From assembly GCA_913052165.1 (NCBI GenBank), contig CAJXEC010000007.1, forward strand, positions 1 to 45,083: a stretch of DNA of 45,083 nucleotides. Reading direction: 5' to 3'. Source of the stretch: an uncultured Rhodospirillaceae bacterium. GTDB lineage: Bacteria > Pseudomonadota > Alphaproteobacteria > MPNO01 > UBA2964. Position numbers and translations under genes: made by a program. Under the pieces are notes generated by a model. That model did not search any database. It had not been told where the DNA came from and saw only the letters and a program-made list of their open reading frames with translations. Positions 1,697 to 28,603 of the stretch are shown here, piece by piece; the first letter of the stretch is position 1, and each line of letters starts with the position of its first letter.

Positions 1697-2179
1697 TTAA
1701 TATATTCCAAGCTCATTTCTTAAAATTCATATCCCCTCCAACATTGATTTTGATTTTGCAAAAACAAATCTTGGGAAATGTGTTTCATGCCACAATCAGG
1801 GGCTACCAATTACTTGTTCGACGGAATCCCTTTGATGCACTTCATTTACGCTCCGCAATTTATTGAGGAATTTCTATCACGGCGTTCCCAAGAACTAAAA
1901 CACCAAGCATAATCTTCATGAGCGGAAACGCTGCAAGACTGACAGACTAATTTTTGGTTTTGCTGCCTCAATTGAGGTTATCTCCACTAATTCCTCCGAG
2001 CGCTAAAAAGTACCTACAATGTCTGCTTCGAGAGGTGGCTTACTTCTAGCAGTCATTTTAAGCTCCCTATTTTTTTGACATTTATGCCGCAGAATAAGGT
2101 CGATGTCATACTCGGTTTTCGGGAAGACTAATTCCTGCTAATCAGACTACAGATATCCATTTGAAATGGCGAGGCAACA
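1697..2179. other. Intergenic interval with a decayed gene relic
   Basis: A 483-base stretch without an intact gene. On the minus strand at 1916-2056 it holds the start of a MetE-C-like gene interrupted by a stop (separate entry). The rest (1697-1915) has stops in all frames and short hydrophobic-looking fragments that I could not assign. It is probably the remainder of the decayed gene plus the promoter of the intact plus-strand gene at 2180. Confidence 0.6.
1916..2056 (-). pseudogene. 5' relic of a MetE-C-like (cobalamin-independent methionine synthase family) gene
   Basis: A minus-strand ATG (2054-2056) follows GGGAG with a 6-base spacer. The frame reads MTARSKPPLEADIVGTF, then TAG (2003-2005), then RSEELVEITSIEAAKPK and on to a TGA at 1916-1918. 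This matches the conserved N-terminus of single-domain MetE-C-like proteins (R-S-K-x-P... H/D-x-V-G-S/T-F/L-x-R-P-x-x-L). The intact neighbour at 2180 begins in the same way (IRSKHRIRITHVGSLPRPSQL-type start), and the relic shows where L-R-P should stand as stop-R-S. The zinc-binding core is absent, so it cannot be functional. It appears to be the head of a decayed divergent paralogue. The match is by eye over about 35 residues. Confidence 0.62.
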
Positions 2180-3349
2180 ATGATTCGTAGCAAACACCGC
2201 ATTCGGATAACCCACGTGGGGAGTCTTCCGCGACCATCACAGTTAATTGATCTGATGGTCGCGCAAAATCAAGGTCAAGAAATTGATAAAGGCATCTACG
2301 ATAAAGCACTGGCTGACGCAGTTGATGAAGTCGTAAAAAAACAAATTGATCTTGGGGTCGATGCAATCGATGACGGAGAGTTTTCAAAGAGAGGTTTCGC
2401 TGTATATGCCCACGAGCGCCTTGGTGGACTAGAGGAAACTGGAAGATCTAGACCGTCCCCTTGGGCGGAGTCCAGAGAGTCTAGAGAATTTCCGGAATTT
2501 TATTCAGGAGAGAAATTAGCGGGCGAGAGGCTCCCAACTCCAAGTACCATGCAAATGGTATGTAGCTCCGCCATAAAATACGTGGGCCATGATCAACTTA
2601 ATCGCGACATAGAAAATTTAAAAAAGGCGGCAGCAAAACACGGAGCAGAGGAAGTTTTCATGCCCGCCATTTCACCGAGCGACGTCGTGGGTAATCAACT
2701 CAACGAATATTATTCAACGGAAGAAGAATTTCTAACAGCTGTCGCCGACGCGCTAAATGAAGAATATCGCGCCATTGTGGATGCTGGTTTTCTCTTACAA
2801 ATAGATGATCCGAGATTGATTAATTACTATGTAAAGAACCCTCAACTATCGATCGAGGATTGTCGGAAATGGGCGGCGCTTCAAGTTGAAGCTATCAATT
2901 ATTCCCTGAGAGGCATTTCCGAGGATAACATCCGGTATCATACATGCTACGGCATCAATATGGGTCCTAGAGTGCACGACATGGAGATGAAAGATTATAT
3001 GGATATCGTTCTAAAAATTAATGCTTCGGCTTTCTCATTTGAGCACGGAAATCCTAGACACGAGCACGAGTGGGCCCTCTGGGAAGACCTCAAGCTCCCT
3101 GACGGAAAAATGGTCATACCAGGTGTTATTACCCACTCATCATTGGTCGTTGAGCATCCCGAACTCATATGCCAACGGCTAATCCGATTTGCCGAGGTAG
3201 TCGGGCGAGAAAATGTTATGGCCGGGGGAGACTGTGGCTTTGGAACCCAAGCCATGGCTGAACCAGAGGTGCACCCCAGCATCGTATGGGCAAAGTTTTC
3301 AGCGATGTCAGAGGGAGCTCAGATGGCTACAAAAAAACTATGGGGCTAA
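2180..3349 (+). CDS. Cobalamin-independent methionine synthase C-terminal-domain-like protein
   Basis: A 389-residue protein equal in length to the single-domain relatives of the MetE C-terminal TIM barrel (UROD/MetE-like superfamily), not to full MetE (about 750). Visible features: HVGSLPRP near residue 12, DDGEF at 64-68, and the zinc ligand set His254 and Cys256 (HTCYG), Glu288 (FEHGN) and Cys352 (GGDCGFGT). The family transfers or cleaves groups on thiolate substrates bound to zinc. Members include methionine synthase cores and 2-hydroxypropyl-CoM lyase-like enzymes. Without the N-terminal MetE half the methyl donor is unclear, so I do not assign metE. The gene stands alone on this strand. 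A decayed paralogue is found just upstream on the opposite strand. Confidence 0.85.
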   Translation: MIRSKHRIRITHVGSLPRPSQLIDLMVAQNQGQEIDKGIYDKALADAVDEVVKKQIDLGVDAIDDGEFSKRGFAVYAHERLGGLEETGRSRPSPWAESRESREFPEFYSGEKLAGERLPTPSTMQMVCSSAIKYVGHDQLNRDIENLKKAAAKHGAEEVFMPAISPSDVVGNQLNEYYSTEEEFLTAVADALNEEYRAIVDAGFLLQIDDPRLINYYVKNPQLSIEDCRKWAALQVEAINYSLRGISEDNIRYHTCYGINMGPRVHDMEMKDYMDIVLKINASAFSFEHGNPRHEHEWALWEDLKLPDGKMVIPGVITHSSLVVEHPELICQRLIRFAEVVGRENVMAGGDCGFGTQAMAEPEVHPSIVWAKFSAMSEGAQMATKKLWG

Positions 3350-3441: not shown

Positions 3442-4308
3442 TTAACGATCAAGGCCAAGTTTAGTCCATTTTTTATAATCTGAGTCCCGCATTAACTCCT
3501 TGATAATGGTGCTATCGGCGCATCTCTCTAGGTTTTCTGGCGGAGTGCCAGTTCGCAAGGCGCTCAGGGTTTCATAGGTTGCCTGAATCGCAGCCATAAA
3601 AGGATAGTGCCCTTGTAGTGAGATTCGGACGCCGAGGCGGCCCAGTTCTTTGGTCTTGAGGGGCGCAGACCCGCTCCCACCCAACATTATTGGGATTGAA
3701 ACTGATGAAGCCACAGCTCTTATCTCTTCCCCAGTCTTGATACCCGAAAAAAACATAGCATCAGCGCCAACAGCCTCGTATCTTTTTGCTCGCTCGATCG
3801 CGTCATTTAAATCTGTAATTTGAGCTGCTCCCGTTCGTGCAATAATCGCGAGCCCCGTGTCATTACGCGCATCCAAAGCCGAGCGAATCTTTGCAACTCC
3901 CTCCTCAATGCTAACAAGGCCAGGCGGCCCACCAATTCCATAGCGTTTAGGCAAGTCAGTATCTTCAATGGTTAGACCTGAAACCCCGATTGTCTCAAGC
4001 TCCTCGACTGTGCGTCGGACATTCAGAGCGTTACCATAACCATGATCGGCATCTACCATTATAGGCATCGAAGAGAGAGCTCTATTGACCCGATGAATTT
4101 GCTCTGCAAATTCGCTGAGGGTGATAAGGATAATGTCTGGACCTCCCAAAACTGTTTGGGATGCCACCGAGCCTGCAAACATACCACATTCAAAACCCAA
4201 ATTCTCTGCTATTCGAGCAGAAATCGGATCAAATACGGATCCCGGATGGTAGCAATTTCCGCTTTCCAGCAGAGCTCGATAAGCTTCTCGCCTCGCCGTC
4301 CATTTCAT
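3442..4308 (-). CDS. PEP mutase/isocitrate lyase superfamily, oxaloacetate-decarboxylase-like
   Basis: A 288-residue (beta/alpha)8 enzyme of the isocitrate lyase/PEP mutase superfamily. The metal site is visible as VDADHGYGN (Asp86, Asp88) and IEDTDLP (Glu115). The N-terminus CYHPGSVFDPISARIAENLG and the ALNVRRTVEELE segment resemble the Pseudomonas oxaloacetate decarboxylase subgroup. The K-K-C-G-H catalytic loop of isocitrate and methylisocitrate lyases is not present, arguing against a lyase of those types. Likely reaction by family is decarboxylation of oxaloacetate to pyruvate; other alpha-keto acid chemistry is possible. ATG is preceded by GGAGGAAA at good distance. No operon partners; a tRNA-Arg gene lies upstream on the same strand. 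Confidence 0.85.
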   Translation of the reverse strand: MKWTARREAYRALLESGNCYHPGSVFDPISARIAENLGFECGMFAGSVASQTVLGGPDIILITLSEFAEQIHRVNRALSSMPIMVDADHGYGNALNVRRTVEELETIGVSGLTIEDTDLPKRYGIGGPPGLVSIEEGVAKIRSALDARNDTGLAIIARTGAAQITDLNDAIERAKRYEAVGADAMFFSGIKTGEEIRAVASSVSIPIMLGGSGSAPLKTKELGRLGVRISLQGHYPFMAAIQATYETLSALRTGTPPENLERCADSTIIKELMRDSDYKKWTKLGLDR

Positions 4309-7179: not shown

Positions 7180-8148
7180 TCACCAATCTTTTTGCTGATC
7201 TTTAAATGTTTCAGTCGCCCTGACGAGTGCGGCTCTTATCCCGGGCTCCATAGCAGAATGCCCAGCATCTGGAACCACCACATATTCGGCTTCGGGCCAA
7301 GCTTGATGGAGTGCATCTGCAGTCACTATTGGGCACACCATATCAAATCGACCCTGAATTATCACGCCGGGTATATCTCGGATAAGATCAACATTCTCTA
7401 AAATGCTGCCAACCTCCATAAACAGATTATTGATAAAGTAATGCGCCTCGATACTGGCAAGTGCTGACGCCAGTCGGTCACTACTAAAAGCCGCAACGGT
7501 ATCTGGTGAAGGAATAAGAGTGGAACACGCTCCCTCGTAAGCACTCCACGCCCGAGCTGCTGGTAATCGAATAGTGTCGTCAGGGTCAAGAAGCCTTTTA
7601 TGATAAGAGTTTAAGATATCGGATCGTTCTTGATCACTGAGTACTGCGACCAGGCGACGCCAATTTTCTGGATAAACCGTCTTCATCCCGTAAAGGAACC
7701 AGTCTAGTTCATCCTTTGTACCAAGAAAAATACCGCGAAGCACAAAGCCTAGACACCGATTTGGGTGTGCCTCACCATAGGCCAACGCCAAAGTGCTTCC
7801 CCATGACCCACCAAATACAAGCCACTTTTCAATTCCTAAATATTCTCGCAGCTTTTCAATATCTTCGATTAAATCTCTCGTAGTATTGTCCTGTAGGCAT
7901 CCCCGGGGTTCAGATCTGCCGGCTCCCCTTTGGTCAAATATAATGATTCGATAAAAATTTGGATCAAAGAACCTTCTGTGGACAGGCGTGGCGCCCGCGC
8001 CAGGACCTCCGTGAAGGAAAAGAGCGGGAACCCCATTTGGTTTTCCGGATTGCTCCCAATACATTACGTGAGGCGAAGTTAGGGGCAACATTCCTTTTTC
8101 AAAAGGGTCCAGCGGAGGGAAAAGCTGTTCTCTTACCATTCGAGCCAT
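7180..8148 (-). CDS. pip: Proline iminopeptidase (S33 family)
   Basis: A 322-residue cytoplasmic aminopeptidase that releases N-terminal proline. Family marks: HGGPGAG oxyanion motif (46-52), DQRGAGRS (72-79), the GGSWGS elbow with Ser115, Asp269 (GRFDMVCP) and His297 (DAGHSA). Length is normal for the family (310-330). The last codons overlap the longest possible start of the PagL-like gene, so the two are probably co-transcribed, peptidase first. The ATG at 8148 has no strong ribosome site; the family N-terminus (LFPPLDPFEKGML) agrees with this start. Confidence 0.92.
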   Translation of the reverse strand: MARMVREQLFPPLDPFEKGMLPLTSPHVMYWEQSGKPNGVPALFLHGGPGAGATPVHRRFFDPNFYRIIIFDQRGAGRSEPRGCLQDNTTRDLIEDIEKLREYLGIEKWLVFGGSWGSTLALAYGEAHPNRCLGFVLRGIFLGTKDELDWFLYGMKTVYPENWRRLVAVLSDQERSDILNSYHKRLLDPDDTIRLPAARAWSAYEGACSTLIPSPDTVAAFSSDRLASALASIEAHYFINNLFMEVGSILENVDLIRDIPGVIIQGRFDMVCPIVTADALHQAWPEAEYVVVPDAGHSAMEPGIRAALVRATETFKDQQKDW

Positions 8149-28527: not shown

Positions 28528-28603
28528 TGGTGGAGCCGAGGGGAGTCGAACCCCTGACCTCAGCATTGCGAACGCTGCGCTCTCCCAACTGAGCTACGGC
28601 CCC
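28528..28603 (-). tRNA. tRNA-Ala (anticodon CGC)
   Basis: A 76-base cloverleaf on the minus strand: acceptor GGGGCCG with CGGCTCC, D stem GCTC/GAGC, anticodon stem CAGCG/TGCTG with loop TTCGCAA, T loop TTCGACT, discriminator A and encoded CCA. Anticodon CGC reads GCG. Confidence 0.95.

Follow-up and report, generated by a model that had tools for sequence, protein, structure and literature searches.

A probable pseudogene of a single-domain MetE-like methyltransferase gene beside an intact MetE-C-like gene in an uncultured Rhodospirillaceae bacterium

Single-domain MetE-like proteins and the locus under study

The closest known relatives of the remnant described here are the 5-methyltetrahydropteroyltriglutamate--homocysteine S-methyltransferase-like proteins of the NF005085/PRK06520 kind, which consist of a single domain and have a solved relative in 1ypx. 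This single-domain MetE-like subfamily is labeled q1 in the following. Bacterial core-MetE (Sci Rep 2020, PMC7005905) is described as a single-domain MetE-type enzyme with an H-x-C...C zinc motif. By these features it can be likened to q1 and to a second type (q2, see below), either of which may belong to the core-MetE group.

The window, i.e., the whole stretch of DNA that was analysed, is the 45,083-base contig C7 of genome G000 (a 2.48 Mb draft in 141 contigs, 86.6% complete). It opens with an MFS transporter gene on the minus strand (2-949, truncated at the contig end and named from sequence alone), followed on the same strand by an intact gene of the dienelactone hydrolase (DLH) family (1022-1696; PF01738, 1.3e-32). 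An intact, single-domain MetE-C-like gene (q2) lies on the plus strand (2180-3349; PF01717, 42.4 bits against a cut-off of 21) and contains both the H-x-C and the C-G-F motif. Further on, a PEP-mutase-family gene (3442-4308, minus strand) and a tRNA-Arg are found. At 28528-28603 (minus strand), ARAGORN called a tRNA-Ala (CGC), while the same 76 bases matched the Rfam tmRNA model with 47.6 bits (threshold 47); this element is possibly part of a permuted tmRNA, or just a tRNA.

The space between the hydrolase and q2 genes measures 483 bases (1697-2179). Its minus strand very probably holds a pseudogene of a single-domain MetE-like gene, the product of an ordinary lineage-specific loss. The first-pass annotation had proposed about 480 bases of debris; the gap does have this size, but only about 75 bases (2056-1982) can be recognised as remnant, and the unrecognisable part of 1697-2179 would be debris or spacer. 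With the NF005085/PRK06520 proteins the remnant has the N-terminal pattern R-S-K-P-P-x-x-A-D-x-V-G-x-x-x-R-x-E-x-L in common. It differs from them by a stop at codon 18 and by the part after codon 25, which is lost or unreadable.

The readable head and its intact neighbor

The readable head covers codons 1-25 of a decayed q1-type gene (1982-2056, minus strand) in a single frame with one internal TAG (2005-2003). As had been noticed in the first pass, a ribosome site is well placed: the Shine-Dalgarno-like AGGGAG (2063-2068, minus strand) ends 6 nt 5' of the ATG (2056-2054), giving the start context AGGGAG-cttaaa-ATG. The minus-strand translation from 2056 to 1697 opens with MTARSKPPLEADIVGTF, a stop, RSEELVEITSIEAAKPKISLSVLQRFRS, and another stop, where MTARSKPPLEADIVGTF comprises 17 codons, the TAG is codon 18, and RSEELVE follows. 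A search of the surroundings for repeats and promoter-like sites gave nothing usable. The head resembles the extreme N-terminus of intact, 380-residue q1 proteins from genomes of the same family, with identities over 23-24 residues of 63% (G006), 58% (G008 and G007), 54% (G010), and 52% (G005). The conserved segment P-P-F-R-A-D-x-V-G-S-x-L-R-P is found, in degenerate form, at the start of the ORF from profile column 1.

The intact MetE-C-like gene indeed starts in the opposite direction at 2180, with 123 bases between the two starts. Its position, orientation, and distance would fit two close paralogues that once formed a divergent pair, one half of which decayed, as was first suggested. The neighbor is a single-domain member of the same broad family, but it is hardly a close paralogue: it aligns with a q1-family protein (L117 of G004) at only 23.9% identity, its N-terminus reads T-H-V-G-S-L-P-R-P, and it reaches no NCBIfam cut-off. 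On sequence grounds, q2 and the head are thus assigned to different MetE-C subfamilies. Furthermore, 19 q2 orthologues (60-76% identity) were listed for other members of the order, and a readable q1 gene was found beside none of the 15 whose loci were read (14 of them informative, as the upstream sequence of L035 is limited to about 70 bases). The head peptide matched nothing at these 15 loci beyond q2 starts and chance-level stretches. A lost divergent or tandem pair of paralogues was rejected on these two grounds, the subfamily and the missing q1 neighbor, and we consider it unlikely that the remnant is half of such a pair. In the same-genus genome G001, the MFS transporter, q2, and PEP-mutase genes are arranged in the same order and orientation as in the window; no DLH gene and no readable head lie between the MFS and PEP-mutase genes.

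Two side observations were made at the q2 loci. At L047 (G015:C82, 6517-7869), the q2 orthologue is split by a TAG into two ORFs, which represents either decay of the family elsewhere or an assembly error. At L033 (G001:C4, 5248-7921), a tandem pair of MFS-like transporter genes is present, the first of which is closest to the hydrolase-adjoining transporter of other relatives (47-59%), and the second of which corresponds to the transporter in the window (72%).

A different possibility is that the ribosome site and the 17-codon ORF form a leader peptide or another short ORF with a function, located ahead of the hydrolase gene. Selection would then have kept the start of a dead enzyme as a regulatory short ORF, i.e., a translational leader for the hydrolase. 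Both the ribosome site and the start are intact, and the stop follows after 17 codons. Beyond the TAG, however, the q1 pattern R-x-E-E-L-V-E persists, as decay predicts; the q1 alignment crosses the stop without a frame shift, and the similarity to the five genomes named above (E 4.5e-4 to 7e-3 per genome) lies on both sides of it. The TAG had been noted earlier at the point where the conserved L-R-P follows, which agrees with these alignments. Moreover, no Rfam family reached its gathering threshold at the remnant, and no terminator-like site occurs in 1600-2300. At the DNA level, the head is not conserved in 60 other genomes, where a single 24-base match, judged to be chance, was obtained; a homologous non-coding sequence kept in relatives, which the first-pass annotation had named as evidence against decay, is therefore not seen among them. 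A leader function is accordingly very unlikely in our judgement, and decay of a q1 gene remains the preferred reading.

The strength of the match itself has to be judged with some care. A q1 profile built from 39 q1-family proteins matched the three frames of 1697-2056 with 11.7 bits over columns 1-30 (E 1.5e-5, for three short sequences). A frameshift-tolerant alignment of the head scored 28.1, a value reached by none of 1000 dinucleotide shuffles (mean 13.2, maximum 23.3). When the whole window was scanned in 2994 six-frame chunks, nothing outside the intact gene at 2180-3349 scored better than the head (E 0.0028), and the first place unrelated to the head or the q2 gene followed at E 1.3. 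The decayed gene head on the minus strand is thereby borne out by profile and shuffles alike. The matches to single proteins are modest and near chance level; the weight rests on their agreement and on the profile. This is illustrated by G036, where a 40% match to the head (E 0.009) falls in an ORF missed by the q1 profile, so that single matches of this size must be regarded as close to chance. Among 385 genomes drawn from across the class, G006 was the only one, besides the window itself, to match the head at E <= 0.003, and the 46-residue peptide was not recognised by Pfam. Chance resemblance of intergenic DNA to a MetE N-terminus, for which the mere 25 residues and a best single-protein E of 4.5e-4 per genome could be cited, is highly improbable given that the match begins at an ATG preceded by a ribosome site and aligns from the first profile column onward, that no shuffle reaches its score, and that no other place in the window outside the intact gene does as well.

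The presumed remainder of the remnant and the hydrolase side

The stretch 1697-1981 (minus strand) is presumed to be the decayed rest of the pseudogene and would derive from the same dead gene. It has stops in all frames and ends at the hydrolase start codon, so that the debris directly abuts this gene (TAA 1699-1697, ATG 1696-1694). After about 25 codons, no significant similarity was detected: in a free local alignment that allows for frameshifts (1697-1978), the best score was reached by 46 of 150 shuffles. The middle of the q1 profile, including the zinc-site H-x-C, found no match in any frame of 1697-2056.

One motif near the end of the debris may nevertheless be mentioned. P-D-C-G is encoded at 1800-1789, about 32 residues short of where the debris ends, and q1 proteins have P-Q-C-G-F with the cysteine 33-35 residues from the C-terminal end; this cysteine is presumably a zinc ligand. 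In a position-anchored alignment, the tail score was reached by 14 of 1000 shuffles and by 11 of 1692 window stretches, among which the intact gene and the remnant were still included. Since this test was designed after the motif had been seen, the reading of P-D-C-G as a C-terminal trace of the q1 gene is suggestive only. If 1697-2056 is all that remains of the gene, the deletion would have removed about 780 bases from an original length of roughly 1140.

Ten further genomes of the order carry a DLH orthologue (53-59% identity). A readable q1 gene was seen at none of the 10 orthologous loci (at two of them, L110 and L116, the upstream sequence is shorter than 450 bases) and at none of the eight loci of another set, seven of them on the same contigs. 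A lost operon of q1 and hydrolase was rejected, as no q1 gene lies beside the orthologous hydrolase in any relative read. In five relatives, a q1 gene is convergent with a paralogous hydrolase that is 33-34% identical to the one in the window, which constitutes a different arrangement.

Probable loss of the q1 family in the genus

Across the 27 genomes of the order that were searched, q1 matches at E <= 1e-40 were found in 23, near full length in 22 and as a fragment only in G014. The frame of the remnant is broken (by the TAG and by stops in all frames) while the gene is near full length in 22 of 27 genomes. The q1 protein of G006 scores 362.3 bits against the NF005085 cut-off of 313, and its closest solved structure is 1ypx (E 4.7e-76). 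At this threshold, q1 is absent from G000, G001, G011 (71% complete), and G021. In a laxer search (E <= 10), three places came up in G000: the head at E 0.03, q2 at 0.07, and C54:16257-16364 on the minus strand at 0.12. The same search of G001 (99% complete) gave a single ORF at 26% identity (locus L160). With PF01717, only the q2 gene was detected in G000, and both q1 fossils were missed as well.

The third of these places belongs to a second decayed q1 gene (C54:16257-16437 of G000, minus strand; locus L159, about 7258-7438), of which roughly the final 60 codons survive, spread over two frames. Profile columns 310-335 are matched in one frame and columns 338-372 in the next, indicating a frameshift, and Y-G-L stands where q1 has C-G-F, i.e., the presumed zinc cysteine is replaced by tyrosine. 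The frameshift-tolerant score of this fossil was 48.6 (300 shuffles reached at most 19.8), which makes it a much clearer q1 remnant than the head in the window. The head spans columns 1-25 and the C54 tail columns 310-372; with no overlap between them, the two may be parts of one gene that was split by rearrangement. The surroundings of the C54 fossil have one gene in common with locus L085 of G025 (57.6% over 370 aa), but its placement with respect to q1 differs, and this resemblance was set aside. Given two decayed pieces and no intact copy in the available G000 sequence, gene loss is the simplest account, although an intact copy may be missing from this assembly of 141 contigs and 86.6% completeness.

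The pseudogene would have originated from a full-length gene of about 380 codons for an NF005085/PRK06520-type methyltransferase, running on the minus strand from 2056 toward the hydrolase gene. The stop at codon 18, together with later breaks, would have inactivated it, and a deletion would have shrunk it to at most 360 bases, leaving the ribosome site and the first 25 codons readable; we infer this order of events and the size of the deletion. No intact orthologue was found at the same place in relatives, so the deletion is not directly seen. The remnant is predicted to make no functional product. The q1 family would have been lost in the genus, as neither of the two genomes sampled (G000 and G001) has an intact copy and the C54 copy is also decayed. 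Relaxed selection or genome reduction is the presumed cause; the same-genus relative has a genome of 2.5 Mb at 99% completeness, and other family members with a completeness of 93% or more have genomes of 2.8-4.4 Mb.

Taken alone, the remnant is of little significance. It would document how a multi-copy family of MetE-like methyltransferases, kept by most relatives, is being lost from a genus; in one genome, two decayed q1 copies can still be seen. The remnant also serves as a warning that unannotated intergenic stretches can hold traces of lost genes.
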